This document shows, in pieces, positions 18,779 through 32,353 of a stretch of 64,000 nucleotides of DNA. Position 1 is the first letter of the stretch. Each line of letters opens with the position of its first letter. The notes under the pieces were generated by a model, which saw nothing but the letters and a program-made list of their open reading frames with translations, ran no database searches and was not told the DNA's origin. Source of the stretch: Myxococcus fulvus (GTDB lineage Bacteria > Myxococcota > Myxococcia > Myxococcales > Myxococcaceae); the NCBI RefSeq assembly GCF_900111765.1, contig NZ_FOIB01000001.1:496001-560000 (forward strand), in the 5' to 3' direction. The position numbers and the translations under genes are program-made.

Positions 18779-18803
18779 GCCCATTTCCTATCAAGGACGC
18801 GTG

Positions 18804-19700
18804 ATGCTTCCCGTCATCCTCGCCCTGCTCTTGTCGCAGACGCCGCCCGCCGCCAACCCGCGCCAGCAAGGTGTGCCCATCGGCAAGGGCAAGACGCTGC
18901 CCACGGTGCGCCTGAGCGCGCCCTCCGGCGGCTGGACGGTGGACCGGATGATGCTCATCGAAGGCACGGTGAGCGACGCCACCATCGACCCCATCGTCGT
19001 GTCCATCAACGGCGACCGCTACCTGATGCGCACGTTCAACGGGCGCTTCAGCCGCAGCTTCCCCGCGGCGAGCGGGAAGAACGTCGTCACGGTGATGGCC
19101 ACGAACCAGGCGGGCACCGCGCGCGCGCAGGCGACCAGCTACGCGCAGGTTCCTCCCGTGCCCTTCAAGGTCATCCTCACGAGTGACACGGATGGCGTGT
19201 ACACGGACCTGCACGTCTACGAGCCCACGGACTCGAGCGTGAAGGATGGGAATCTCACCATCTCGTCCATGGCGCACGTGTACTGGGCGGACACGGCGAG
19301 CCCGTCGGGCGGCACGTTCTATCTGAACTCGCAGGGCGGTGACTTCGACCAGCCCGCGTACGGCCCCTACCTCTACATCCACCGCGCGCCGCCCAAGGGC
19401 GTGTACCTGGTGGCGACGAACTACTGGCCCAGCGGCGACAAGGCGCACACGGTGGCCACGCTGAACCTGTCGCTGTTCGAGGGCACGCCGCAGGAGGTGC
19501 GCCGCATGGTGCGCATCCCGCTGGCGACGCCGGGCACCACGCGCGTGCTCGCGTGGGTGAACGTGCTCGGGGACGGACAGGCGGAGGTCTACGTGCCGTC
19601 GGCGGACCCCAAGCCCACGCGCGCCGGCTGGCCGACGAACCTGGCCGAGGCCCTCAAGGAGCTCCAGTCGAACGGCGGCGGCGGCGAGGGCGACTACTGA
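18804..19700 (+). CDS. Secreted DUF2135 protein (YfaP-like)
   Basis: ATG 18804 lies six bases after AAGGA; GTG 18801 is too close. The 298-residue product has a short signal peptide (LPVILALLLSQTPPA). Residues about 30-115 look like an immunoglobulin-like beta domain (RLSAPSGGWTVDRMMLIEGTVSD, typical of cell-surface Ig-like folds). Residues about 120-235 match DUF2135: LTSDTDGVYTDLHVYEP, a Gly/Ser-rich loop, GPYLYIHRAPPKGVYLVATNYW. In E. coli the DUF2135 protein YfaP is encoded with an alpha-2-macroglobulin (YfaS), DUF1175, DUF2138 and DUF2300 proteins; the same set follows here. Biochemical role unknown; probably a periplasmic binding or adaptor protein. Confidence 0.85.
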   Translation: MLPVILALLLSQTPPAANPRQQGVPIGKGKTLPTVRLSAPSGGWTVDRMMLIEGTVSDATIDPIVVSINGDRYLMRTFNGRFSRSFPAASGKNVVTVMATNQAGTARAQATSYAQVPPVPFKVILTSDTDGVYTDLHVYEPTDSSVKDGNLTISSMAHVYWADTASPSGGTFYLNSQGGDFDQPAYGPYLYIHRAPPKGVYLVATNYWPSGDKAHTVATLNLSLFEGTPQEVRRMVRIPLATPGTTRVLAWVNVLGDGQAEVYVPSADPKPTRAGWPTNLAEALKELQSNGGGGEGDY

Positions 19701-19734
19701 CGCGCGCCCGTGTGACGCGCACCGGTCCCTGGCC

Positions 19735-20343
19735 ATGTTCGCCCTGCCTCTCATCCTGCTCTTGAGCGCCTCCGCGCCCGCGGCCGCCTCGGGGACCGAG
19801 GCCGTGCTGGCGCCCGAGTCGCGAGACGTGCTCCTGCGCCGACAGGTGGCGCAGGTGGCGCTCGCGCAGGTGCGCAAGCAGGACCCGGCGTGGCATCCGG
19901 ACCAGCGTGACTGCGCGGGCCTCATCCGCTTCGCCGTGCGCACCGCGTACAAGCGCATCGCCCCCGCGCGGCTGGAGACGCCGCTGTGGACCGACGCGCG
20001 CGGCACGCCCACCGACTTCGCCGACGCGGAGACGCTGGTGCGCCGCAACCTGGTGCTGCTGGGCCGCGACGACGCCACGCGCGAGTCGCTGCGCACCGGT
20101 GATGTGCTCGCGTTCCTCCACGAGCACGACGCCGGCCCCGTCTTCCATCTCATGCTGGTGGTGCGCCCCGAGGACCGGGCGCATGCGCCAGCGCGTGTCG
20201 TCTACCACCCGGGGGAGAAGGGCGCCCAGGTGCGCACCGGGCTCCTCCATCAGCTCGCCGATGAGGCGCCGCGCGAGTGGCGTCCAGTGCCCTCCAACAA
20301 CGCCTTCCTCGGCTATTTCCGTCTCAAGGAGTGGATGCCATGA
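19735..20343 (+). CDS. DUF1175 protein (YfaT-like), NlpC/P60-like signature
   Basis: A 202-residue protein with a signal peptide (residues 1-19, cut after AAA-S). It matches DUF1175 by context and by its conserved core. The core itself resembles NlpC/P60 cysteine peptidases: RDCAGLIRFAV (Cys60 as nucleophile), then GDVLAFLHEHDAGPVFHLMLVV (His138), the same order and spacing type as DCSGL...GDLLFF...H in peptidoglycan endopeptidases. Activity against cell-wall peptides is therefore an inference. Second gene of the macroglobulin operon, 34 bases after the DUF2135 gene; its TGA overlaps the next ATG (ATGA), indicating translational coupling. No convincing ribosome site precedes the ATG at 19735. 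Confidence 0.8.
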   Translation: MFALPLILLLSASAPAAASGTEAVLAPESRDVLLRRQVAQVALAQVRKQDPAWHPDQRDCAGLIRFAVRTAYKRIAPARLETPLWTDARGTPTDFADAETLVRRNLVLLGRDDATRESLRTGDVLAFLHEHDAGPVFHLMLVVRPEDRAHAPARVVYHPGEKGAQVRTGLLHQLADEAPREWRPVPSNNAFLGYFRLKEWMP

Positions 20344-21962
20344 CGTCTGTGTCGAGCCCGCCTCCGGGCACGCCGCCGCCCCCGGCGAGCCCTCCGCCCC
20401 GCTCGGGCCCTCCCAAGGGAGTGCTCATCGGCGCGGGTGTGGTCGTCGTCGGCGCGCTGGTCGCCGGCGCGTTCCTGATGGGCCGCCGCACCGGTTCCAC
20501 CGGCGGCGACGGCACGCCCCACACGCCCCTCATCACCGGCGCCGGCCCCAACGGCTCCGTGCCGCCTCCCGAGGTGGAGGGCCTGCCGGACCCGACCTCG
20601 GCCGACATGGAAGTGCCCGGCTCGAGCGCGCCCCAGGCCGTGTGGCTGGACGTGCACCACCCCGCGAAGGTGCGTGACGCCCTGGCGCGCAACGCGTGGC
20701 TGCGCTCGCAGCTCTCCCAGCCCCTGGGCCAGGGCTTCGTGGGCGGCTGGGCCGCGTTCTTCGGCTCCACCGGCGAGGACCTCAAGGCCGACTTCAAGGG
20801 CGCGGTGCTGGACCTGATGCTCGGCAAGCTCGGCGACACGCCATTCCGCGTGACGTGGTTCGCCGGTGACGCGCGCGCGAGCACGCCCGCCTTCATCGTC
20901 CCCGGCTCGCAGACCTCCGCCTTCTCCTCCTTCGACGTGCTGGACTCCGTGGCGAGCCGCGGCACGCTGACGGCGAAGACGTGTCCGGGCGGTACGCCCC
21001 CGCCGAAGGCGGACGGCGTGGAGCTCAAGCGGTGGCTGGTGGCGGAGCAGACGCTGTGGGCAGGCAAGGGCGTCGACCGGGTCGTCTTCGCGCGCCACCC
21101 GGTGGCGGTGCTCCAGGGCCTGTGCGCGGACCTTCCGAAGCTCAAGGCCAGCGACGGCGTGGACGTGGAGCTGGGCTTCCAGCCGCAGACCTTCGGCCGC
21201 GACGCGCACCTCTTCACGCACGTGCTGGGGCTGTCCCAGGACACGCGCCTGCAGTTCGGCGTGGAGGGCGACCGGCTGGTGGGCCGTGGCATCGCGGGAG
21301 AGCTGATGGAGGGCACCGCGCGCCTGGACTCGGCGCCCCTGTCCGACGACCTGCTGAAGCTGGTGCCCGAGGAGACGCCGGTGTTGATGGCGATGCAGCT
21401 GAAGCTGCCCGAGACGCTGACGGCCGAGTCGCTCAAGGCGTTCTGGGAGTCCGGCGGCGAGGGGCCCACGCGCACGCGCCAGGTGGCGGTGACGTGGACG
21501 CCGCGCGGAGACGCGTCGCTGCCGCAGGAGGTCGCGGTGCTGTGGGGCCGCGCGGAGGACGCGCCGGCGCTGGAGGCCATCTTCACCGGCGGCAGCCACA
21601 CCGTGCAGCGGGCCACCCTGTGCAATCACGTGGTGCTCGCGTCGAGCGAGTCGGAGATGAACACGCTGCGCATGTCGTGCTCGGGCAACAAGCCCAGCAT
21701 GCTCGCGGCGGCGGGGCCGGTGGTGGCGGGGCTGCGCGAGCCGACGTCATTGTCCTTCGGGGTGAACCTGGGACGGCTGTTCGGCGGGCTCACCATGGAC
21801 GGGTACCTGTCCGAGTCCCGCGTGGGGCGTGGCGCGCCGATGCAGAAGGCGACGCCCCCTGAAATCGAAGCGGCGCGGCGCGACCTGGAGTCGCTGCCGT
21901 ACCTGGGCCTGCGCGGCACCGTGCGCGGCGATTCGTTGGTTCCTGGAGGTTTCGGGTCATGA
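20340..21962 (+). CDS. DUF2138 inner-membrane protein (YfaA-like)
   Basis: From ATG 20340 (overlapping the previous stop) the product is 540 residues: a Pro-rich cytoplasmic tail, one transmembrane helix at about residues 27-47, then a large periplasmic domain. The segment VWLDVHHPAKVRDALARNAWLRSQLS and later LMAMQLKLPETLTAESLKAFW match the DUF2138 family represented by E. coli YfaA. The frame is open 21 codons upstream but those codons overlap the DUF1175 gene. It is coupled at both ends by ATGA overlaps. The family function is unknown; position suggests it holds the macroglobulin complex at the inner membrane. Confidence 0.82.
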   Translation: MTSVSSPPPGTPPPPASPPPRSGPPKGVLIGAGVVVVGALVAGAFLMGRRTGSTGGDGTPHTPLITGAGPNGSVPPPEVEGLPDPTSADMEVPGSSAPQAVWLDVHHPAKVRDALARNAWLRSQLSQPLGQGFVGGWAAFFGSTGEDLKADFKGAVLDLMLGKLGDTPFRVTWFAGDARASTPAFIVPGSQTSAFSSFDVLDSVASRGTLTAKTCPGGTPPPKADGVELKRWLVAEQTLWAGKGVDRVVFARHPVAVLQGLCADLPKLKASDGVDVELGFQPQTFGRDAHLFTHVLGLSQDTRLQFGVEGDRLVGRGIAGELMEGTARLDSAPLSDDLLKLVPEETPVLMAMQLKLPETLTAESLKAFWESGGEGPTRTRQVAVTWTPRGDASLPQEVAVLWGRAEDAPALEAIFTGGSHTVQRATLCNHVVLASSESEMNTLRMSCSGNKPSMLAAAGPVVAGLREPTSLSFGVNLGRLFGGLTMDGYLSESRVGRGAPMQKATPPEIEAARRDLESLPYLGLRGTVRGDSLVPGGFGS

Positions 21963-24900
21963 GGATGGTAGCTCGACTCGCGGTACTGGCGGCGGTGGCG
22001 CTGTCCGGCGTGGCGATGGCCAAGCCGCTCTACATCACCGTGCCGCGCGCGTATGGCAGCGGAGAGCCGGTGGCGGTGGACGTGGCCTTCGAGGACAAGG
22101 GGCCCGTGGAGCTGCGCGTGCTCAAGCCGGACAACCTGGACGCGTTCATCCGCGCCCAGGGAGATCTGCGGCGCGCGTACCAGACGCCGCCGACGATGAA
22201 CAACCCGGGCCGCGCGCTCAGCCGCGGCGTCAACGCGGTGACGCTGCCGGGCCACTGGCTGCTCAACGCGCTCAACGTGGGCTTCCGCGACACGGTGAAC
22301 GACGCGCTGCCCGAGGCGGCGGACGTGCCCGGCTCCAGTGAGCCGCTGGCCAAGGTGTCCGAGGGGCCGAAGAAGCTCGTCGGCGTGCCGCCGGGCTTCA
22401 CCGTGACGCGCAGCCAGTGGCTCAACCTGGACCTGGGCGGCGCCGAGCGCGACTTCAACGTGCCGGGCTTCAGCTCGGGCGGGGGCTACGGCTTCCAGGA
22501 GCGCCGCGTGCTGCTGGCGCCGCTGCCCGCGGGCACCTACGTGCTCCAGCTGGTGCAGGGCCTCATCGAGGGCCAGGTGGTGCTGGTCGTCACGGACCTG
22601 ACGGTGCAACTGAAGCAGACGGACAATGAAGTGCTGGTGCGCGTGGCGGGCAAGGACCAGAAGCCCGCGGTGGGCGCCCAGGTGCAGGTGTTCCTGTCCA
22701 AGGGCAAGGGCCCCACGGGCAAGACGGACGCGAAGGGCGAGGTGCGGCTGGAGGTGACGGAGCCGCGCATCATCGCCACGGCGTCGGCGGGCGGGGACAC
22801 GGCCATCGTCGACACGGACTTCTACTCGACGCTGGCGGTGACGCCGGACGTGTTCATCTACAGCGACCGCCCCATCTACAAGCCGGGCCACGAGGTGAAG
22901 TTCCGCGGCGTGGTGCGCCAGCCGGACACGTTCCTGGCGCGGCTGTTCACGCCGAAGAAGCGCGAGGTGACGGTGAAGCTCATCTCGCAGGAGGGCCGGG
23001 CCCTCACCACGCGCGCGTCGGTGGACGAGTTCGGCGCGTTCAACGGCACGCTCAAGGTGCCGGACGATTTGGGCACGGGCGTGCTGCGCGTGTCGGCGGA
23101 GCTGGACGGGCAGCCGCACCAGGGCGAGGCGCGCGTGCAGGACTACGTGAAGCCGACGTTCTACCTGGAGGCGGAGCCGGAGTCGGAGACGGTGGTGCCC
23201 GGCCAGGCGCTGCGCGTGAAGGTGCGCGCGCGTCGGTACGCGGGCGGCGTGCCCGAGGGCGCGAAGTACGAGGTGTTCCTCTACCGCAGCCTGCTGGACG
23301 CGCCCGCGTGGGTGGATGACGCCGGCAAGGGCGGGCAGGGCAGCGACGTGACGTACGGCTCGGCGTCCAGCACCGAGGGCAAGCTGAGCGTGCCCGAGCG
23401 GCTGTACTCCTCCGTGGCGGAGCGCGGCGCGAGCGAGGACCCGTGGGCGAGCGCCACCACGTTCAGCGCGGAGGGCGAGGCGCAGATTGAAGTGGCGGTG
23501 CCGGAGCTGAAGCCCGGTGAGGACCGGCTGCCGTACCGGTACTCGCTGACGGTGCGCGCGCGGGATGACCAGGAGACGTTCGCCAACTCGACGACGTCGT
23601 TCTTCCTGTCGAAGGTGGAGGTGCTGGGCACCGCGCGCTACTCGGACGCGGTGGTGTCCAAGGGCGGCGAGGCGACGCTGTCGGTGCGCGCCACCACGCT
23701 GTCGGGCAAGGCGTACGGCGTCACGCAGGGCGAGGTGGAGTTCGTGCTCCGCCGCGCGGACGGCGCCGAGAAGAGCCTGGGCAAGCGCTCGTTCACCACG
23801 GCGGCGGACGGCACGCACCGCGAGAAGGTGCCCACGTCCGATGTCGGCGCGGTGCTCTCGCGCGTGACGGTGAAGGACAAGCGCGGTGAGACGTGGCAGG
23901 GCGAGGAGTCGCTCCTGGTCATCGGCTCGGCGGACGAGGCGGTGGCGCAGGTTCCCAACCTCACGCTGGCCTCGCTGTCGGGCACGCTGGAGCCGGGCGA
24001 CACGGCGCGGCTGGTGGCGCTGATGCCGGACGGCTGGGGCGCGGGTGGACGCGACGAGGGCCCGGTGTGGGTGACGCTCGCGGGCGCCACGCTCTTCGAC
24101 ACGCAGGTGGTGGCGCTGAAGGGCCGCACGCTGGTGCACAGCTTCAACGTGGAGAAGCGCTTCGGCGGCGCGGTGTACGCGTCCGTGGCGTACCCGACGT
24201 CGACGGGCCGCTGGGAGGAGCGCACGGTGGCGTTCCGGGTGATTCCGCGCGAGCGCACGCTCACCGTGGAGCTCCAGCCGCGTCGGGCCGAGGCCACGCC
24301 GCTGACGGAGCAGACCATCGACCTGCGCGTCACCGACTACGAGGGCAAGGGCGTGGTGGCCCAGCTCTCCGTGGGCGTGGTGGACAAGGCCGTGTACGCC
24401 ATCCAGTCCGAGTTCCGCCCGCGCGTGCTGGACTTCTTCTACCCGCCGGCGCGCAACAACGTGTCCAACTTCTACTCGGCGGAGTTCCAGGGCTACGGCT
24501 ACGGCGAGGCGCTGGCGCGCAAGATGGCGGGCCTGCCCGACCACGCCTTCGCGTCCATCAAGCCTCCCAACCGTCAGGCGAAGGATTTGGAGAAGGACAC
24601 GGCGCACTGGGACCCCACGGTGGTGACGGACCGCGATGGCCGCGCCACGGTGCGCTTCACGCTGCCGTCCAACCAGACGCTGTGGGTGGTGACGGCGGTG
24701 GCGGCGGACACGTCCGGCCGCTTCGGTGAGAGCACCTCCGAGTTCGCCACGCGCGGCGGGCTGAACCTGTACGCCGCGCTGCCGCAGTTCCTGCGCGAGG
24801 GGGATGAGGCGCTCGCCTCCATCCGCCTGTCCGCGGGGGAGAAGTCGCCGGCCAGCCAGCTGCTCGACGTGAAGCTCGCGTCGGCGGGCGCGCTGAAGGC

Positions 24901-26677
24901 GGACCAGTCCCAGCACAAGGTGGAGCTGGCCAAGGGTGGTGAGAAGGTGGTGCCGCTGACGCTGCGCGCCTCGGCGACGGGCGACGCGCAGCTGCTGGTG
25001 GACGTGTCGGGCGCCAAGGACCCGCTCAAGGACCGCAAGCTGTTCCAGGTGGAGCCGGCGGCGGTGCAGGACGTGGTGAAGGTGAGCGCCTGGGGTGGCG
25101 GCGCGCTGGAGGTGCCGGCGGCGAAGGAGGCGACGCTCGCGAGCGTGGAGCTGGTGCTCCAGCCGTCCATCGTCGACGCGGCGCTGTCCAACGTGCGCGA
25201 GCTGCTCACGTACCCGTACGGGTGCCTGGAGCAGCTGGTGTCCACGACGGTGCCCAACGTGGCGGTGTACCAGGTGCTGCAGCAGGCGGGCGCGGTGGCG
25301 AAGCTGGACACCGACACGCAGGCCTTGCTGGCGGAGGCGCGCAGCCGCTCGGTGCAGGGCACCGCGCGCATCCTCAACCTGTCGGTGAAGGGCGGCGGCT
25401 TCACGTGGTTCGGCGGTTACGAGACGCCGAGCCTGCCGCTCACGCTCATCGCGCTGGACGGCCTGGCGTACGCGGCGGAGGCGGGGCTGGTGGAGCGCAC
25501 GGACCCGCGCCTGGTGGAGAGCGCGCGCTGGCTGGAGGCGCAGCAGGGCCTGTCGCCCGAGTACGACGCGACGCGCGCGTACGTGCTGGCGCGGCTGGAC
25601 GGTCCGAAGCAGGCGGCGCGGGTGCGTGCGCTGGTGGAGTCCTCCGAGTCCGGGGAGCTCTACCCGCTGGCGCTGGCGGTGCTCGCGGCGGAGAAGGCGG
25701 GCATCATCAAGGAGCCGGCGCTGCAGGCGCGCATCAACGCGCTGGTGAAGCGCAGCTCCGAGGGCTTCACCACGCTGGCCGCGTACAAGCCGGGCCAGCA
25801 GCTGGAGCAGTCGGAGGCGTTCTTCCGCTTCCCGCTGCGCCGGGTGGGCCTGACGGCCATCGCCGCGCACGCGGCCTCGTTCGGCACGCTGGATGTCACC
25901 CGGGCGCGCCGTCGCATCCTGGAGATGCTGTCGGAGCCGGACCTGTCCACGTTCGACCGGAGCACGGCGCTGTTGCACTCGCTGTGGCTCTTGGAGCGTG
26001 ACGCGAAGGCGTTCAAGGGCATGACGCCGCCGGAGGTGAAGGGCCTGAAGGGCGCGGTGAAGTTCTCGCCGCGCGGCATGGGCCTGGTCGCGACGCTGCC
26101 CGCGGGGACGCGGACGGTGGACGTGGGCGGCTTCGACGGCGTGGCGACGTTGCAGGCCACGACGCTCACGCCGCTCTCCGCGGTGCGCGAGCAGTCCGAG
26201 GGCATGTCGCTGCAGCGCGCCTACTACGTGCTGCGCGAGGGCGGGAAGGTGAAGCTGGGCGCGGGCGACACGGTGGCGCAGGGCGAGGAGGTCTACGTGG
26301 AGCTGACGATGGACGCTCGCGGCGGCAACAAGGTGCGCTCGGCGTACTACGTGGTGGAGGACGCGGTGCCCGCGGGCTTCGTGGCGCTCCAGGAGGACAA
26401 GGCGTTCCGTGGTCCTCCGCACTCGCTGCCGTTGGTGCCGGAGGCGCTCAAGCGCCGGGTGCTGAGCCCGGAGCGCGCGACGTTCTTCTTCGAGGAGCCG
26501 GCGTGGTGGAGCGACAGCCCGCGCACGGTGGGCTACGTGCTGCGCGCGCAGTTCCCCGGCACTTTCTCCGCGCCGCCCGCGCGCATCGAGGACATGTACG
26601 CCGCGAGCATCCGGGGCCGCACGGCCGCGGACTCGCTCAAGGTGGTCCCGTCGAAGAAGGGCACGGGAGACCTGTAG
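21959..26677 (+). CDS. Bacterial alpha-2-macroglobulin with intact thioester motif (YfaS-like locus)
   Basis: A 1572-residue secreted protein with a signal peptide (cut after AMA) and no lipobox, unlike the lipoprotein ECAM (YfhM) of E. coli. Domains in order: N-terminal MG domains, MG2 with DRPIYKPGHEVKFRGVVR (about residue 302), a Gly/Ala-rich bait-like stretch, the A2M segment HWDPTVVTDRDGRATV (about 883), then the thioester motif C-L-E-Q at Cys1089-Gln1092 within YPYGCLEQLVS, the alpha/alpha thioester domain and a receptor-like C-terminal domain. Family knowledge: cleavage of the bait exposes the thioester, which traps the attacking protease covalently. In a predator this could guard the periplasm against its own or foreign proteases. 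ATGA-coupled to the DUF2138 gene. Confidence 0.93.
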   Translation: MRMVARLAVLAAVALSGVAMAKPLYITVPRAYGSGEPVAVDVAFEDKGPVELRVLKPDNLDAFIRAQGDLRRAYQTPPTMNNPGRALSRGVNAVTLPGHWLLNALNVGFRDTVNDALPEAADVPGSSEPLAKVSEGPKKLVGVPPGFTVTRSQWLNLDLGGAERDFNVPGFSSGGGYGFQERRVLLAPLPAGTYVLQLVQGLIEGQVVLVVTDLTVQLKQTDNEVLVRVAGKDQKPAVGAQVQVFLSKGKGPTGKTDAKGEVRLEVTEPRIIATASAGGDTAIVDTDFYSTLAVTPDVFIYSDRPIYKPGHEVKFRGVVRQPDTFLARLFTPKKREVTVKLISQEGRALTTRASVDEFGAFNGTLKVPDDLGTGVLRVSAELDGQPHQGEARVQDYVKPTFYLEAEPESETVVPGQALRVKVRARRYAGGVPEGAKYEVFLYRSLLDAPAWVDDAGKGGQGSDVTYGSASSTEGKLSVPERLYSSVAERGASEDPWASATTFSAEGEAQIEVAVPELKPGEDRLPYRYSLTVRARDDQETFANSTTSFFLSKVEVLGTARYSDAVVSKGGEATLSVRATTLSGKAYGVTQGEVEFVLRRADGAEKSLGKRSFTTAADGTHREKVPTSDVGAVLSRVTVKDKRGETWQGEESLLVIGSADEAVAQVPNLTLASLSGTLEPGDTARLVALMPDGWGAGGRDEGPVWVTLAGATLFDTQVVALKGRTLVHSFNVEKRFGGAVYASVAYPTSTGRWEERTVAFRVIPRERTLTVELQPRRAEATPLTEQTIDLRVTDYEGKGVVAQLSVGVVDKAVYAIQSEFRPRVLDFFYPPARNNVSNFYSAEFQGYGYGEALARKMAGLPDHAFASIKPPNRQAKDLEKDTAHWDPTVVTDRDGRATVRFTLPSNQTLWVVTAVAADTSGRFGESTSEFATRGGLNLYAALPQFLREGDEALASIRLSAGEKSPASQLLDVKLASAGALKADQSQHKVELAKGGEKVVPLTLRASATGDAQLLVDVSGAKDPLKDRKLFQVEPAAVQDVVKVSAWGGGALEVPAAKEATLASVELVLQPSIVDAALSNVRELLTYPYGCLEQLVSTTVPNVAVYQVLQQAGAVAKLDTDTQALLAEARSRSVQGTARILNLSVKGGGFTWFGGYETPSLPLTLIALDGLAYAAEAGLVERTDPRLVESARWLEAQQGLSPEYDATRAYVLARLDGPKQAARVRALVESSESGELYPLALAVLAAEKAGIIKEPALQARINALVKRSSEGFTTLAAYKPGQQLEQSEAFFRFPLRRVGLTAIAAHAASFGTLDVTRARRRILEMLSEPDLSTFDRSTALLHSLWLLERDAKAFKGMTPPEVKGLKGAVKFSPRGMGLVATLPAGTRTVDVGGFDGVATLQATTLTPLSAVREQSEGMSLQRAYYVLREGGKVKLGAGDTVAQGEEVYVELTMDARGGNKVRSAYYVVEDAVPAGFVALQEDKAFRGPPHSLPLVPEALKRRVLSPERATFFFEEPAWWSDSPRTVGYVLRAQFPGTFSAPPARIEDMYAASIRGRTAADSLKVVPSKKGTGDL

Positions 26678-26680
26678 TCG

Positions 26681-28918
26681 ATGGGGTGGGCCTCCATGGT
26701 GGCCGTGTTGCTGGCGGCCACCCCCACCTTCGTCACGCGAGGTGACGTGACGCCCGAGTCGGAGCTTCGCCGCGAGGCGGAGGCCGGCTGGGCGTCGCTG
26801 GAGGCGGTGTATTCCGCGGAGGCGGGTGGGGCGCCGACGAAGGCCCCGGCCTCCATCCTCCTCCAGCGCGGCGCGGCCCTGTCGTCCGAGCGCAACGCGC
26901 AGGGCCGGCCGGGGCTCGTCGAGCTGAGGCAGAACACGCCCGGCGTGCTGGATGAGCGGCTGCGCGTGGCGCTGCGGCACGAGCTGGCGCACCAGCTCCT
27001 GTGGTGGGCGTGTCCGCAGTCGAGCGAGGACCGGCTGTTCCACGAGGCCTTCGCGGTGGCGGTGAGCGGCGAGCTGCCGGCGTGGCGCGAGGGGGGCTAT
27101 CAATCCCTCTCCCGCGCGGCCTCGGAGCTGGCGGCGTCGCCCGCGGTGGATTCGACGCGGGCGCGGCGGGCGCTGGCGCGGCTGCTCAGTGAGTCGGTGG
27201 GGTTCCCCAAGGCGCTGTCGCGTCGGCTGCGTCAGTGTCACGACGGCGCGCGGTGGGTGGTGCCGCTGTCCATCGACGAGCTGGCGGAGGTGGAGGTGCG
27301 CGCCGCGGGGCCGGCCACGGTGGTGGTGAGCCGGCACTCGGGTGAGGTGCTGTTGTCGGAGGGCGAGGTGCGGCGCGCGCTGCCGTATGGCTCGGTGCTC
27401 AAGCCCTTCGTGTACGCGGCGGGCGTGGGGCACCCGGTGCTGGCGCCGCGCGTGGACGTGCAGGAGTGGAGCTGCGGGCCCGGGCTGCCGGCGAAGGTGG
27501 ACGCGCGCACGGCGCTCCTGCGCTCGTGCAACGGGTACTTCCTGGACTGGGAGGCGGCGGGCTCGGCGCCCAGGGCCTTGGGTGCGTGGGGCCCGGTGCT
27601 GTCGGCGCTGGGGATGACGGGGACACCCGCGGACATGGCGGACATGGTGGGGCTGCGCTCGACGCTGTCGCTGTCGCCGTGGGGACTGGCGCAGGCGTAT
27701 CGGCTGCTGGCGGAGGCGCGGCCGGACGTGCTGGCGCTGCTCGCGGACAACGCGGACCGGGGGACACTGGCGGAGCTGCCCGCGTCGAAGGCGTTGTCAG
27801 GCGTGGCGACGAAGACGGGGACGGTGCGGGACGCGGCGAGCCGTCCGCAGTACGGCTGGATTGCCGCGGTGGACGGGGACCTGGTGGTGGTGGCGGTGCG
27901 GCCGGGGAAGATGCCCAGGCAGTTCGCGGAGGAGATTCCGGCGGCGCTGGCGCGCGCGCGCAAGCAGGCGGGCGTGGAGGCGGCGCGGGTGCAGGTGTTG
28001 GGGCTGGTGCCCGCGCGCGAGGTGGAGGCGCGGTGTCCGGGCGTGGGGTTCTCGGTGGACGGTGGGATGCCGAAGCCCTCTCTGATGGAGTGGACGCGGC
28101 TGGAGACGTTGACGACGAAGGGCGCGGCGGTGTGCCTGGGCGCGCCGTGGCGCGTGCGCTTCCCGAAGGGGCCGGAGGATGGGCGCGACTACGCGGGCGT
28201 GTTCACCTGGTCGCCCCCGCTAGCGTATCGGCCGCCCGAGGGGGTGCCCACGTCACCGAGCGCGATGAAGGCGCGGCGGGGCTCGGACTTCGTGTTCCGC
28301 ACCACGCGGTTGCAGTACACGGCGGGCGTGGTGGCGGCGGAGGACGTGACGCTGAAGGGCGAGCCGCGCGTGGCGCTGGCGCGCGTGGTGGCGCACAACG
28401 AGCGGCACAGCCGACACCCGGGTCGCGCGGTCTGCGACACGACACACTGTCAGGCCTTCCGGGGCACGGTGCGCGTGCAGCGCGATGACGCGAAGGCGCT
28501 GGGGATGCCCGCGCTGAAGTGGAGGGAGTGGCTGCTCTTCTCGCAGGGCGGCGAGGAGCCGTGGAGACAGGAGCGTCCGCGCGGAGAGGTGGAGCGCCTG
28601 CTCGGGCGAGGGCTGGTGTCGCTGCGCTTCGAGGCGGGCCGGGTGAACTACCTGCTCACCGAGCGCGATGGGACGGCGACGTACGAGGACGGGCGCTCGC
28701 TGCCGTGTGAGCTGCTGCGCTCGGGGTTGAAGCTGCCGTCGTGTCCGCGCACGGCCTCGTTCAACGGGAGCGTGCTGGTGTTCGAGGGACGCGGACGTGG
28801 ACACGGCGAGGGGCTGGACGTGGAGGCGGCGAAGGCGAGCGGCCTGCGCAGCGATGCGATTCTCGAGGCCGCGTACGGGAAGAAACGCCCGGAGCCTCGC
28901 GACGTGGATGGGGAGTAG
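26681..28918 (+). CDS. DUF2300 protein (YfaQ-like): metalloprotease-like, PBP-like and SpoIID-like regions
   Basis: Starts three bases after the macroglobulin stop; 745 residues with a signal peptide. Residues about 85-130 contain HELAH (100-104) and a following HEAF with Glu122, a gluzincin-like zinc site. Residues about 200-430 contain the three penicillin-binding/beta-lactamase motifs in order: S238-V-L-K241, S282-C-N284 and K378-T-G-T. Residues about 535-730 match SpoIID: YTAGVVAAED, CDTTHCQAFRG (Cys585, His589, Cys590) and GRGHGEGLDVEAAKASGL. In E. coli the DUF2300 protein YfaQ accompanies the macroglobulin YfaS. Seen together, these motifs predict a periplasmic peptidoglycan-binding or -modifying protein. 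Whether each site is active is unknown. Confidence 0.85.
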   Translation: MGWASMVAVLLAATPTFVTRGDVTPESELRREAEAGWASLEAVYSAEAGGAPTKAPASILLQRGAALSSERNAQGRPGLVELRQNTPGVLDERLRVALRHELAHQLLWWACPQSSEDRLFHEAFAVAVSGELPAWREGGYQSLSRAASELAASPAVDSTRARRALARLLSESVGFPKALSRRLRQCHDGARWVVPLSIDELAEVEVRAAGPATVVVSRHSGEVLLSEGEVRRALPYGSVLKPFVYAAGVGHPVLAPRVDVQEWSCGPGLPAKVDARTALLRSCNGYFLDWEAAGSAPRALGAWGPVLSALGMTGTPADMADMVGLRSTLSLSPWGLAQAYRLLAEARPDVLALLADNADRGTLAELPASKALSGVATKTGTVRDAASRPQYGWIAAVDGDLVVVAVRPGKMPRQFAEEIPAALARARKQAGVEAARVQVLGLVPAREVEARCPGVGFSVDGGMPKPSLMEWTRLETLTTKGAAVCLGAPWRVRFPKGPEDGRDYAGVFTWSPPLAYRPPEGVPTSPSAMKARRGSDFVFRTTRLQYTAGVVAAEDVTLKGEPRVALARVVAHNERHSRHPGRAVCDTTHCQAFRGTVRVQRDDAKALGMPALKWREWLLFSQGGEEPWRQERPRGEVERLLGRGLVSLRFEAGRVNYLLTERDGTATYEDGRSLPCELLRSGLKLPSCPRTASFNGSVLVFEGRGRGHGEGLDVEAAKASGLRSDAILEAAYGKKRPEPRDVDGE

Positions 28919-28930
28919 GGAGCCCGACGG

Positions 28931-29507
28931 ATGGCCGAGGTGAAGCGACTGGACGCGATGGGGCGTGAGGTGTCCTTCGAAGAGCTCGCGGAGCGCTTCA
29001 AGGGTCATGAGCTGTTGCCCTGGTTGATGGACAACCGCACGCTGGTGAGCAAGGAGCCCCAGCCCCGGCTCATCTGGTGACGGGCGGCTCCGGGCTCGAA
29101 ACATCCGCTACATGAGCAGCGCGCGCGTGGCGGTGGACGGAGACCTGGTGGCGTCGGGAGTCATCGTCGGCACCGGAGGGGACTCCGAGGCGAACCTGGG
29201 CACCCGCGGGACGCTGACCGCGCTGGCGGTGCTGTTGAATGCGCACACGTCCATCTGGGCGAACGGGGGAGGACCGGACTCCATCCAGGAGGCCTTCCGC
29301 ACGCTCATCGTGGGCGGCAGGGCCTGGCAGGAGTTCAAGCAGGACGTGGATGTGGACGACCTGGACATCCACGAGGCGACCTTCGTCCCCGAGGTCCTCG
29401 ACGACGGCATCCTGGACGTCGACAAGGCGATGGAGCGTGCCCGCGCGGGCCTCGGTCCGTTCCTCCCCGAGGTCGAGCGCGCGCTGAAGGCGAAGCGCGG
29501 CCTCTGA
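28931..29507 (+). pseudogene. Broken upstream copy of a tandem gene pair
   Basis: The first 48 codons (from ATG 28931, GREVSFEELAERFKGHE, DNRTLVSKEPQPRLI) and the part from about 29081 (GRLRARNIR, SSARVAVDGD) to the stop at 29507 are both closely similar to the intact gene at 29548. Between them, right after PRLI, about 131 bases present in the intact copy are missing. The loss shifts the frame, and TGG TGA follows immediately. A separate product from ATG 29112 (131 residues) is possible but would lack the N-terminal domain. This is a duplicated gene with an internal deletion, not two genes. Confidence 0.8.
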
Positions 29508-29547: not shown

Positions 29548-30255
29548 ATGGCGGATGCGGAGACGTTGGACAGGCTGGGGCGCGAGGTCTCGTTCGAGGA
29601 GCTCGCGGAGCGCTTCAAGGGCCACGACATGCGGGACTGGCTGCTGGAGAATCGCACGCTGGTGAGCGAGGAGCCCAAGCCTCGGCTCATCGAGGGAAGC
29701 CTTCAGGTGGACCACGACCTGGAGACGGGAGATGGGCCCTGGGTGCTGGTCATCGACGGTGACCTGGTGACGACGGGCGACCTCGTCTGCACGACGGACG
29801 ACTACGCGGTCAGCACGCTGTTCATCACGGGCCAGCTCCGCGCCCGCAACATCCGCTTCCAGAGCAGCGCGCGCGTGTCGGTGGACGGTGACGTCGTGGT
29901 GTCCGGAGTCATCGTCGGCACGGGCGGTGACTCGGAGGCGAGCCTGGGCACGAGCAGCACGCTCACCGCGAGGGCCGTGGTGCTCGATTCGAACACGGCC
30001 ATCTGGGCCAAGGCCGGCCAGCCCCGCTCGGTGCCCGAGGCCTACCGCACGCTCATCGTGGGCGGCAAAGGCTGGCAGTCATTCATCCCGGACGTCGACG
30101 TCGGCGACCCGTCGCATCACCAGCAGACCTTCGTCCCCGAGGTCATCCGGGGCGGGGTCCTGGATGCGTACAAGACCTGGTCTCACGTGCGGACGGGCGG
30201 AGGTCCGCTCCTCCCCGAGGTCGAACAGGCGCTGAGGCAGAAGAAGGGCCTCTGA
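29548..30255 (+). CDS. Beta-solenoid-like cytoplasmic protein of unknown function
   Basis: The intact member of the tandem pair, 235 residues. The N-terminal 45 residues are helical (GREVSFEELAERFKGHDM). Residues about 55-150 are strand-rich with repeated V-DGD-V, TTGDLV, VDGDVVVSGVIVG and GTLTA steps, reminiscent of short parallel beta-helices such as bactofilin-type or DUF342-like proteins, but no family signature is certain. The C-terminal 80 residues are helical and charged and end in KKGL, as does the broken copy. No signal peptide. The gene is convergent with the histidine kinase gene, three bases away. Function unknown; a polymer-forming or scaffold role is only a guess. Confidence 0.8.
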   Translation: MADAETLDRLGREVSFEELAERFKGHDMRDWLLENRTLVSEEPKPRLIEGSLQVDHDLETGDGPWVLVIDGDLVTTGDLVCTTDDYAVSTLFITGQLRARNIRFQSSARVSVDGDVVVSGVIVGTGGDSEASLGTSSTLTARAVVLDSNTAIWAKAGQPRSVPEAYRTLIVGGKGWQSFIPDVDVGDPSHHQQTFVPEVIRGGVLDAYKTWSHVRTGGGPLLPEVEQALRQKKGL

Positions 30256-30257
30256 CC

Positions 30258-31640
30258 TCAGGCGGCGGACTGGAGGTCCCGCGTCTTCGGGAACACGAGC
30301 GTCGCGCGGGTGCCCTTCTCGGCGGCGTGCTGGAACGACAGCGTGCCGCCGTGCGCCTCGACGATGCGGCGCACCAGCGTGAGCCCCAATCCGACGCCTC
30401 CCGTCTCCCTCGCGCGGCTGCGGTCCGTGCGGAAGAAGGGCGTGGTGAGCTGCGGCAGGTCCGTGGTGCTCACGCCGATGCCCCGGTCCTCGACCTCTAC
30501 TCGCACCGAGTCTCCATCAACGGAGGCCCGCAGCGTCACGGCGCTCCCCGGCTCCGAGTACTTGCGCGCGTTGTCGAGCAGGTTGTGGATGGCGCGTCGC
30601 ACCAGCACTGGGTCCACCTCCAGCGAGGGCAACGTCTCGGGCAGCTCCAGTGAGAGCGGGCACTCGGGCGCGGTGCGCTGGAAGCGCTCGGCGGTGTCCC
30701 GCAGGAAGTCCGGCAGGGACACGCTCACCCGCTGGATGCGCGGCCCGGGTTGTCCCGCCTGGTTCGTCTCCAAATCCAGCCGCGCCATCTGCATCACCCC
30801 GTCGACCAGTTGCTGGAGCTCACCGATGTCCCGACGCAGCTCCGGCAGTCGGGTCGCCAGCTCCTCGGGCTGACCGTCCTCGACCAGGTCCAGCGTCACG
30901 CCCAGGCGCGCCAGCGGCGTGCGCAGCTCGTGTGACACGTTGGCCATCAGCTCCTTCTGCCCTCGGATGAGCGCCTCCATCCGCGCGGCCATCTCGTCGA
31001 AGGCGCGGCCCAGCATCGCCACCTCGTTGCGCCCCTTCAGGTTCGCGCGCGCGGACAGTCGCCCCTGGCCGAACTCGTCCACCACCTTCGTCAGCCGCTC
31101 CAGCGGAGAGGCGATGGCGCGCGCGAGCGGGATGGACAAGAGCGCGAGCACCAGCAGGACGATGGTGATGACGAGCCCCAGGAACATGTAGCTGCGGTTG
31201 GTCCGGGAGGCCTCGCGGAGCATGTAGCCATCCATCGTCGAGCCGCGCCACGTGAACGTCACCCAGAAGTGGGTCCCCTCGCGATTGACCCAGCTGTATC
31301 CCAGCCGGATGCCCTGCCACTCGGTCTCATCGAGCATTCGCGGAGGAGGATTCGCCGTGCTCCGCCGCAGTCGCCCCTGGGCGTCGAACAGGGTGACGTG
31401 GTGTCCGTGCTCCGCGACGATGGACTGCATCAGCGGCTGGAGCTCGGGAGGGTCCGTCGGCGCGAGCTTCACCACCTGCTCGAGCTTGCGGTCCAGGTCC
31501 GGGATGCGTCCTCCGCCCTGGGCCTCGATGGCTTCGGCGACGATGCCCAGGGCGACGACGGAGCTGCCCAGCATCAGCAGGCCGTACAGGTAGATGCGCC
31601 AGAACATCCGGCGCGGGCGCAGGTGCTCGGAGAGCTTCAT
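30258..31640 (-). CDS. HAMP-type membrane sensor histidine kinase (CpxA/EnvZ-like)
   Basis: A 460-residue protein with transmembrane helices at about 12-34 and 150-172 enclosing a periplasmic sensor domain of about 115 residues. A HAMP segment (about 170-225), a HisKA domain with SHELRTP (His237) and a HATPase domain with IHNLLDNARKYS, DRGIGV and GGVGLGL follow. This is the class that pairs with OmpR-family regulators. Its ATG overlaps the stop of the response-regulator gene (ATGA), so the two are co-translated and are cognate partners. Signal unknown; the CpxR-like box upstream of the operon would fit an envelope-stress system. Confidence 0.95.
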   Translation of the reverse strand: MKLSEHLRPRRMFWRIYLYGLLMLGSSVVALGIVAEAIEAQGGGRIPDLDRKLEQVVKLAPTDPPELQPLMQSIVAEHGHHVTLFDAQGRLRRSTANPPPRMLDETEWQGIRLGYSWVNREGTHFWVTFTWRGSTMDGYMLREASRTNRSYMFLGLVITIVLLVLALLSIPLARAIASPLERLTKVVDEFGQGRLSARANLKGRNEVAMLGRAFDEMAARMEALIRGQKELMANVSHELRTPLARLGVTLDLVEDGQPEELATRLPELRRDIGELQQLVDGVMQMARLDLETNQAGQPGPRIQRVSVSLPDFLRDTAERFQRTAPECPLSLELPETLPSLEVDPVLVRRAIHNLLDNARKYSEPGSAVTLRASVDGDSVRVEVEDRGIGVSTTDLPQLTTPFFRTDRSRARETGGVGLGLTLVRRIVEAHGGTLSFQHAAEKGTRATLVFPKTRDLQSAA

Positions 31641-32353
31641 GGCTCCTCACCCTGTTCCAGCACGTACCCCACGCCGCGCACCGTCTTGAGCATGCGCGGG
31701 TTGCGCGCGTCGTCCCCCAGCTTCTGGCGCAGCCTGGACACGTGCACGTCGATGGCCCGGTCCACGGGGCCGTCCGGGTCGCCGCCCTTCGCCAGCTCCA
31801 GCAGCTGCTCCCGGGACAGCACGCGTCCCGCCCGCTCGGCGAGCCCCAAGAGCAGCGTGAACTCGTGCCGCGTGAGCGACAGTGGCTGTCCGTTCAGCGA
31901 GGCCCGCATGGCGCTCCGGCTCAGCGAGAGGCCGCCCACGCGGACCACGTCGCGCGTGGGGCCCAGGTGTCCCCGGCTGCGGCGCACCAGGGCCTGGATG
32001 CGCGCGAGCAGCTCCCGCGAGGAGAAGGGCTTGGGCAGGTAGTCATCCGCGCCAAGCTCCAGCCCCATCACCCGGTCCGCCTCTTCCCCGCGCGCGGTGA
32101 GCATCAGGATGGGCACCGCCGAGCGCTCGCGCAGCTCCCGGCACACGGTGAGCCCGTCCTTCCGGGGCAGCATGATGTCGATGAGGATGGCGTCGAACGC
32201 GCGGCGCGAGGCCTCCACCAGCCCCTGCTCCCCGTCCCGGGCGAGGCAGGTCTTCACGCCCTGGCGCTCCAGGTACTCGGCGGTGAGCCGCGCCAGGTGC
32301 GCGTCGTCCTCGATGAGGAGCACTTCGATGGCGGAGGCGGGTGACGAGGCCAT
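31637..32353 (-). CDS. OmpR-family response regulator
   Basis: 238 residues: receiver domain (1-125) with the acidic pocket EDD (15-17), phospho-acceptor Asp59 in ILIDIMLP, a conserved Thr in LMLTARG and Lys in YLPKPFS. A winged-helix DNA-binding domain (about 140-235) follows, with LTRHEFTLLLGLAERAGRVLSREQL and VHVSRLRQKLG. It belongs to the OmpR/CpxR type that binds direct repeats as a dimer. It is the middle gene of a three-gene operon with a small membrane protein upstream and the kinase downstream. It probably controls its own operon through the box at 32762. Confidence 0.95.
   Translation of the reverse strand: MASSPASAIEVLLIEDDAHLARLTAEYLERQGVKTCLARDGEQGLVEASRRAFDAILIDIMLPRKDGLTVCRELRERSAVPILMLTARGEEADRVMGLELGADDYLPKPFSSRELLARIQALVRRSRGHLGPTRDVVRVGGLSLSRSAMRASLNGQPLSLTRHEFTLLLGLAERAGRVLSREQLLELAKGGDPDGPVDRAIDVHVSRLRQKLGDDARNPRMLKTVRGVGYVLEQGEEP

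Follow-up and report, generated by a model that had tools for sequence, protein, structure and literature searches.

Does a bacterial macroglobulin operon with wall enzymes of its own form a self-contained system of trapping and repair in the periplasm? The question is raised by five plus-strand open reading frames (ORFs) in a 64,000-nucleotide stretch of the 10.8 Mb genome of Myxococcus fulvus (assembly GCF_900111765.1, contig NZ_FOIB01000001.1, positions 496,001 to 560,000; hereafter, the window), which a sequence-only reading had interpreted in this way. Judged by sequence, the operon is a divergent myxobacterial Mag (Yfa) operon, and the architecture of its last product, MagE, is solid: an HExxH zinc-peptidase-like module, a D,D-transpeptidase module of the penicillin-binding protein (PBP) type, and a SpoIID-type module are joined in one 745-residue chain. 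On balance, and by a modest degree, we favor the reading that this is a myxobacterial Mag system with an apparently fully equipped wall enzyme, which would combine trapping with wall editing; a self-contained system of trap and repair would go beyond what the sequence shows.

Identification of the operon

The window macroglobulin is of the YfaS (MagD) type and adjoins homologs of DUF1175 (MagC), DUF2135 (MagA/MagF), and MagE, the combination that marks Mag/Yfa operons. Its best aligned piece scores 140 bits against E. coli yfaS, compared with 61 bits against yfhM, and profile–profile comparison with the proteobacterial families gives probabilities of 99.5 for the DUF1175 protein and 99.3 for the MagA-like protein (against YfaP). 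The genes occupy the P-T-A-S-Q slots (A-C-B-D-E in Mag naming), with a single MagA-like gene, and are coupled just as the sequence-only reading described, by ATGA overlaps or gaps of at most 34 bases (in order, a 34-base gap, two 4-base overlaps, and a 3-base gap); the first ORF begins with GTG at 18801 or ATG at 18804. The same reading likened the set to E. coli yfaP/T/A/S/Q in content but not in order, which holds for four of the five families and for the order. The yfaA slot is the exception, as no homology is detectable there: the third gene had been taken for YfaA (DUF2138), and this assignment was not confirmed, with no Pfam match and a profile–profile probability of 0.5. What the MagB-position protein does have in common with YfaA/MagB is size, slot, and an N-terminal membrane anchor.

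Signal-peptide-like N-terminal stretches are apparent by hydropathy in the MagA-like protein and in MagE, and export of MagA, MagC, MagD, and MagE is predicted from their N termini. DUF1175 is present in 72 of the 96 genomes of the window genome's family; a second full-length match occurs in four of the 96 (G002, G003, G005, and G033).

A three-module MagE

The profile of MagE relatives (alignment A5, 32 rows) matches SpoIID structures (8.6e-46) and PBP structures (1.7e-28) in the PDB. In an AlphaFold2 (AF2) model, most ten-residue blocks of residues 211–430 have a predicted local distance difference test score (pLDDT) above 85, with dips at 251–270 and 291–300, and the rest of the model is poor; the 211–430 part aligns with the transpeptidase domain of PBP3 (Z 20.9, root-mean-square deviation 3.2, 220 residues). 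Window MagE carries SxxK, SxN, and KTG in what is modeled as a transpeptidase fold, the features by which a PBP is recognized. The structure check that the sequence-only reading had proposed is answered in part, by recovery of the PBP transpeptidase domain. The fold of the HExxH module was not confirmed.

Relatives make the same modules easier to recognize. A single acidobacterial MagE aligns with the PBP2 MrdA, its SxxK falling on that of the enzyme, and the relatives at loci L032, L057, and L062 match Pfam Transpeptidase (3.5e-24, 8.2e-39, and 3.9e-35, respectively) and SpoIID (1.8e-23, 1.7e-21, and 1.3e-22); PF00905 is passed by these three and by the relatives at L087 and L049. The SpoIID-type module includes Glu554, which we take to be equivalent to the catalytic Glu of a SpoIID-type lytic transglycosylase. 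The remaining module combines HExxH with a downstream Glu, as expected of an HExxH zinc peptidase of clan MA; its profile reaches HExxH enzymes and other proteins in the PDB, all at E 0.16 or weaker, and Peptidase_MA_2 gives a weak Pfam match in 6 of 18 HExxH rows, with none for the window row. No ORF of the window besides MagE was matched by the PBP profile.

The motifs lie where the sequence-only reading had placed them (Cys60 and His138 in the DUF1175 protein; HELAH at 100, SVLK at 238–241, SCNG at 282–285, and KTGT at 378 in the last protein; CLEQ at 1089 in the macroglobulin). Its naming of the last protein as DUF2300 was not borne out, as Pfam DUF2300 gives no match and BLASTP to YfaQ only E 0.18. 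The link to YfaQ comes from profile comparison over the PBP–SpoIID part (probability 57.8, P 1e-4 against the proteobacterial form), and the window MagE profile reaches better-preserved MagE with probabilities of 98.4 (Acidobacteria) and 97.6 (second myxobacterial operon). The three-module make-up of MagE seems new: we found no account of it in the literature searched, a search outside which lay the 2013 mBio and 2021 MagC papers, which might mention MagE domains.

Residue conservation

In a set of 15 rows, comprising the window and 14 myxobacterial orthologs (L036 was left out because its contig ends in MagD), all rows retain each catalytic position that was tested in MagE and MagC, as well as the thioester, at mean identities of 65–72%. 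With 212 of the 745 MagE columns invariant in this set, the conservation is more than expected by chance. Among the PBP-bearing rows of A5, the Ser and Lys of SxxK, the Ser of SxN, and the Lys and Thr of KTG are each found in 27/27, and the SpoIID Glu is found in 27/27 SpoIID-bearing rows. HExxH is present in all 38 module profile matches that were not selected for the motif, and the downstream Glu in all 18 aligned rows; the rows of the HExxH alignment (A4) were selected by HExxH, so that motif invariance within A4 is by choice. In a joint MagE alignment (A3), the HExxH-only rows were misaligned, and they were therefore aligned apart in A4 and left out of A5.

MagE modules across loci

One scan with a MagC query, limited to the 80 matches closest to a myxobacterial MagC, yielded 79 loci, a sample that consequently leans to Acidobacteriota. 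We compared the 52 loci with a MagD ORF of at least 1300 residues and at least 4000 bases after MagD. The other 27 (MagD absent or short, contig end, or fewer than 4000 bases after MagD) were left out of the module count, and two class A PBPs were set aside as not MagE, as were the PBPs encoded on the minus strand at L072, L075, and L082. MagD is followed by the full set of three modules in 42 of the 52 loci, across several phyla and in four fusion or fission arrangements: a fused PBP-SpoIID-HExxH protein (24), PBP plus HExxH-SpoIID (12), PBP-SpoIID plus HExxH (3), and three separate genes (2, plus L051, whose SpoIID ORF has a weak extra PBP match). The window order, HExxH-PBP-SpoIID, is a fifth arrangement, which the window has in common with L114 and the window-type myxobacterial loci (at L035 the HExxH motif is present, with its module under the profile threshold). 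The other ten loci have HExxH alone (5), PBP alone (2), PBP and SpoIID (1, where the stretch ends), SpoIID alone (1), or none (1).

HExxH of the window type occurs in 36 of the 52 loci, all among the 42 with three modules, and a proteobacterial type occurs in 11, of which 6 are among the 42. Because many loci helped to build the module profiles, their E-values are partly circular, and independent support comes from the matches to Pfam and the PDB. On control loci, namely E. coli yfhM-pbpC and the two other macroglobulin loci of the window genome, these profiles detected neither a SpoIID nor an HExxH module. A Pfam survey for DUF2300 found none in 146 genomes of the window's phylum (the E. coli positive control matches).

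Proteobacterial copies differ. In the Pseudomonas family (the family of G346, assigned by OprF match; MagC in 61 of 298 genomes, of which 20 were examined), MagE has HEYLH and SCG in 20/20 and KTW in the expected context in 19/20. Of the proteobacterial copies examined, those of the Pseudomonas family, those of Escherichia, and most of the rest have kept HExxH but carry altered PBP and SpoIID motifs or lack these modules. This alteration or loss of wall motifs while HExxH stays makes the laboratory models look reduced, and the altered E. coli and Pseudomonas-family motifs suggest why the wall modules of MagE went unnoticed. Of ten published P. aeruginosa primers, only RB and RC match any of the stretches examined.

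As to whether the PBP modules of MagE go back to one ancestor, an unconstrained tree, for which 16 near-duplicates were removed along with 3 poorly trimmed rows and all but 4 of the 20 Pseudomonas-family rows, does not group them together (L114 is placed with a different PBP from the window genome); a tree in which they form a single clade is not rejected (approximately unbiased test, p-AU 0.734).

The survey also turned up variant loci. At L032, L033, and L050 (the Archangium violaceum Cb vi76 locus), which belong to G003, G033, and probably G005, the second DUF1175 lies in a better-preserved mag operon, ordered B-C-D-A-E with a separate HExxH gene. Three acidobacterial loci (L057:15690-16478, L062:15689-16600, L076:15725-16570) encode a hydrophobic protein of 262–303 residues between MagD and MagE, the usual MagA slot; that of L057 has no Pfam match. 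In two metagenome-assembled genomes of Aeromonadaceae, a long PBP gene lies upstream of the mag operon (L109:3098-5605, L113:5579-8068), the one at L109 being class A by its N terminus.

MagC and the macroglobulin thioester

Asp59, Cys60, His138, and His158 of MagC are each invariant in alignment A2, for which 45 of the 80 rows were used, so that MagC presents the Cys-His(-His) motif of NlpC/P60 proteins. Against the PDB, the DUF1175 profile from A2 finds a chain named MagC (7bk8, 1.3e-66), followed by 11 weak matches (E 0.023 to 1.9) mostly named NlpC/P60 or cell-wall hydrolases; E. coli YfaT reaches Pfam NLPC_P60 at 0.00038, under the cut-off. Relative to the Pfam DUF1175 model, the window protein is without a middle stretch (approximately positions 75–114). 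The title of a 2021 FEBS Lett paper (Zouhir et al., cited in PMC10318531) describes P. aeruginosa MagC as NlpC/P60-like and peptidoglycan-interacting. The NlpC/P60 proposal of the sequence-only reading is thus correct but not new, and its wider claim that the partners point to peptidoglycan is upheld by the matches of the DUF1175 and MagE profiles to NlpC/P60-type, SpoIID, and PBP structures.

The macroglobulin thioester, reported as intact, is present and is the ordinary condition among relatives: CxEQ occurs in 65 of the 67 MagD ORFs of at least 1300 residues from the 79 loci, the two without it being Escherichia. At Pseudomonas-family loci it is present in 8/20 and absent in 12/20. 'Type II' bacterial macroglobulins were defined by absence of the CXEQ thioester (PMC5764988), a definition that leaves out window MagD; of the Type I features, it has CXEQ and is without the adjacent PBP1c gene, as the PBP part of MagE is a transpeptidase domain within a larger multi-module protein. 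With 65 of 67 relatives bearing the thioester, its absence from Type II macroglobulins is most simply explained by loss, and looks derived rather than the rule. Elsewhere in the window genome (contigs 8 and 9), L190 has a macroglobulin followed by a long PBP gene, a Type I-like pair, and L189 a third macroglobulin; both have CxEQ.

Table 1. Positions in the window of the operon's genes, modules, and conserved residues.
Feature	Position	Strand	Basis
MagA/MagF (YfaP)-like, DUF2135 + glucodextranase-B-like domain	18801..19700	+	Pfam PF09906 7.3e-7, PF09136 1.7e-7
MagC (YfaT), DUF1175, NlpC/P60-like	19735..20343	+	PF06672 2.2e-29
MagC Asp59-Cys60 codons	19909..19914	+	invariant in 45/45 and 15/15 rows
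MagC His138 codon	20146..20148	+	invariant in 45/45 and 15/15 rows
MagC second invariant His, His158 codon	20206-20208	+	conservation
MagB-position protein, one strong N-terminal hydrophobic stretch	20340..21962	+	hydropathy 2.52 from residue 28; no Pfam match
MagD (YfaS)-like alpha-2-macroglobulin, 1572 residues	21959..26677	+	Pfam MG2, A2M, BRD (bait region), TED, bMG10
Thioester CLEQ, residues 1089-1092	25223..25234	+	sequence; kept in 15/15 rows
MagE (YfaQ)-like three-module protein, 745 residues, order HExxH-PBP-SpoIID	26681..28918	+	motifs, profiles, structure model
HExxH zinc-peptidase-like module	26741..27280	+	HELAH 26978-26992; downstream Glu122 27044-27046
PBP transpeptidase module	27290..27997	+	SVLK 27392-27403, SCN 27524-27532, KTG 27812-27820
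SpoIID-type module, limits approximate	28256..28903	+	Glu554 28340-28342, CDTTHC 28433-28450, GHG 28799-28807

A sigma-54 promoter 5' of the operon was considered and dropped (15 consensus matches against a mean of 24.85 in shuffles). On the 3' side, the ORFs at 29112-29507 and 29548-30255 look like paralogs, of which the latter alone has a DUF7305 match, weak and under the cut-off; a histidine kinase and response regulator pair follows on the minus strand (30258-32353).

Proposed mechanism and alternatives

Under the reading we favor, the complex would be a periplasmic one, kept at the wall by the membrane protein and MagC. MagD would capture enzymes entering the periplasm, and MagE would edit the wall at sites of damage or where a large complex must pass: its SpoIID module may remove denuded glycan, its PBP module may rework peptide cross-links, and its HExxH module may process MagD or trim the captured protein. 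Among the proteobacteria we examined, MagE would have kept its peptidase module while its wall modules decayed, and this would fit what happens to MagD in P. aeruginosa lacking magE, where its amount is altered and higher-mass forms appear (PMC5764988). HExxH outlasts the wall modules where these have gone (5 of 52 loci), and MagD is aberrant in the magE mutant; processing of MagD by MagE is therefore a simple, testable idea, and the unexplained effect becomes a one-residue question at HExxH. MagE may act both on the wall and on MagD.

Several observations weigh against this reading. Catalysis by the MagE modules and by MagC is a prediction from sequence. Window MagE does not match Pfam PF00905 (Transpeptidase), scores 13.4 bits against PF08486 (SpoIID), below the 23-bit cut-off, and with its PBP region alone finds nothing in the PDB by single-sequence search; among ten MagE ORFs scanned with Pfam, Transpeptidase matches four and SpoIID four, those of L114, L107, and both L091 ORFs matching neither. 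Modeled alone, the HExxH module has a mean pLDDT of 59.4 and no PDB match at E <= 0.001, so its fold is unconfirmed, and the two HExxH types are weakly alike (probability 14.8, P 4e-4), so that common descent is not established although both are pooled in the 42/52 count. The five loci with HExxH alone imply that the wall modules are dispensable there. Loss of the catalytic residues across orthologs, which the sequence-only reading had named as a ground for rejecting it, is seen in part: they are kept in all 15 myxobacterial and all 45 MagC rows, but the SxN Asn, the KTG Gly, and the Cys-His-Cys cluster are altered in five proteobacterial or bdellovibrio MagE rows (L127 keeps the His), and L114 has a gap at the SxN Asn. 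The MagB-position protein shows no detectable similarity to YfaA/DUF2138 (BLASTP; hhalign probabilities 0.5 and 0.9). From the literature, MagE was taken to be cytoplasmic and not stably bound, and the 165 to 100 kDa step of MagD was tied to MagB, which speaks against processing by MagE (Zouhir et al., PMC5764988), whereas window MagE starts with a signal-peptide-like stretch; MagD gives no protection against TseH and is dispensable against B. thailandensis (PMC12663445); and DUF1175 has been called inactive and peptidoglycan-binding (PMC10318531).

The wall enzymes might instead only open and reseal peptidoglycan for placing or anchoring a macroglobulin complex of at least 165 kDa, with no repair of damage. 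Specialized lytic enzymes make space in the wall for secretion machines, the recurrent neighbors of MagD are wall-type modules, and, between them, the SpoIID-type and PBP modules could do both cutting and rejoining. MagD, however, is still kept in loci with HExxH alone, and magD protects against the wall-degrading type VI secretion system effectors VgrG3 and, to a limited extent, Tae1, a sensitization upon its loss that fits protection better than mere assembly (PMC12663445); we consider such dedicated space-making unlikely. The modules of MagC and MagE could also be pseudo-enzymes that bind peptidoglycan non-catalytically and only place the trap at the wall, consistent with the description of DUF1175 just cited and with the altered motifs of proteobacterial MagE. 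Yet the motifs are intact in the other rows (the L114 gap excepted) and kept in the 15 myxobacterial rows, and the invariance of the MagC Cys and both His in 45/45 rows would be unexpected for binding alone and is hard to square with inactivity of the family, though these residues could also be fixed by a role in binding. This account strikes us as distinctly improbable.

In its strict form, the sequence-only reading holds that a protease trap and the repair of wall damage done by predatory enzymes engage all parts jointly. It draws on the same evidence as our preferred explanation, and since myxobacteria are predatory, lytic enzymes are a likely threat. For the other type of macroglobulin, which goes with PBP1c, however, a pairing of trap and repair had been put forward before (PMC5764988), and we hold the strict form to be the least probable of these accounts. 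A complement-like circuit, in which the HExxH module would be a convertase cleaving MagD, the freed thioester would covalently tag damaged peptidoglycan or the attacker, and MagC with the PBP and SpoIID modules would edit the tagged wall, is a long shot; if it were true, the published E. coli and P. aeruginosa macroglobulins would be reduced remnants.

Comparison with known systems

That such an operon has no assigned function, as the sequence-only reading supposed, is outdated, as the orthologous P. aeruginosa operon has already been studied. This operon is magABCDEF, and MagD binds MagA, MagB, and MagF. MagB is predicted to contain a transmembrane segment and tethers MagD to the inner membrane; little MagD is left in the absence of MagB (PMC5764988). 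In the same paper, the legend of Figure 6 has the 100-kDa MagD absent in a magC mutant, and the main text describes magC deletion as without pronounced effect. Judged on Pseudomonas-family and E. coli relatives, the window system has in common with P. aeruginosa mag the MagA/F-like, MagC, MagD, and MagE homologs, predicted export, and a membrane-anchored partner. It differs in its A-C-B-D-E order, its one MagA-like gene, the presence of the thioester, a MagE with permuted modules and intact PBP and SpoIID motifs, and a MagB-slot protein that is not recognizably related. MagC itself is, like the MagC of PDB 7bk8 (Zouhir et al., 2021), DUF1175 and NlpC/P60-like; interaction with peptidoglycan is published for the latter.

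With this comparison, the window system comes across as a more complete form of a known bacterial self-defense, of whose wall chemistry the laboratory models seem to have lost part. The E. coli K-12 operon, ordered yfaA-T-S-Q-P with yfaS a pseudogene, has four of its five families in common with the window in a different order, and its YfaQ, unlike window MagE, has HExxH at the C terminus, SCG for SCN, and KTW for KTG. E. coli yfhM-pbpC, a Type I system, couples a thioester macroglobulin to a PBP, as the window does, but its PBP is a separate class A enzyme, and it has no SpoIID or HExxH module.

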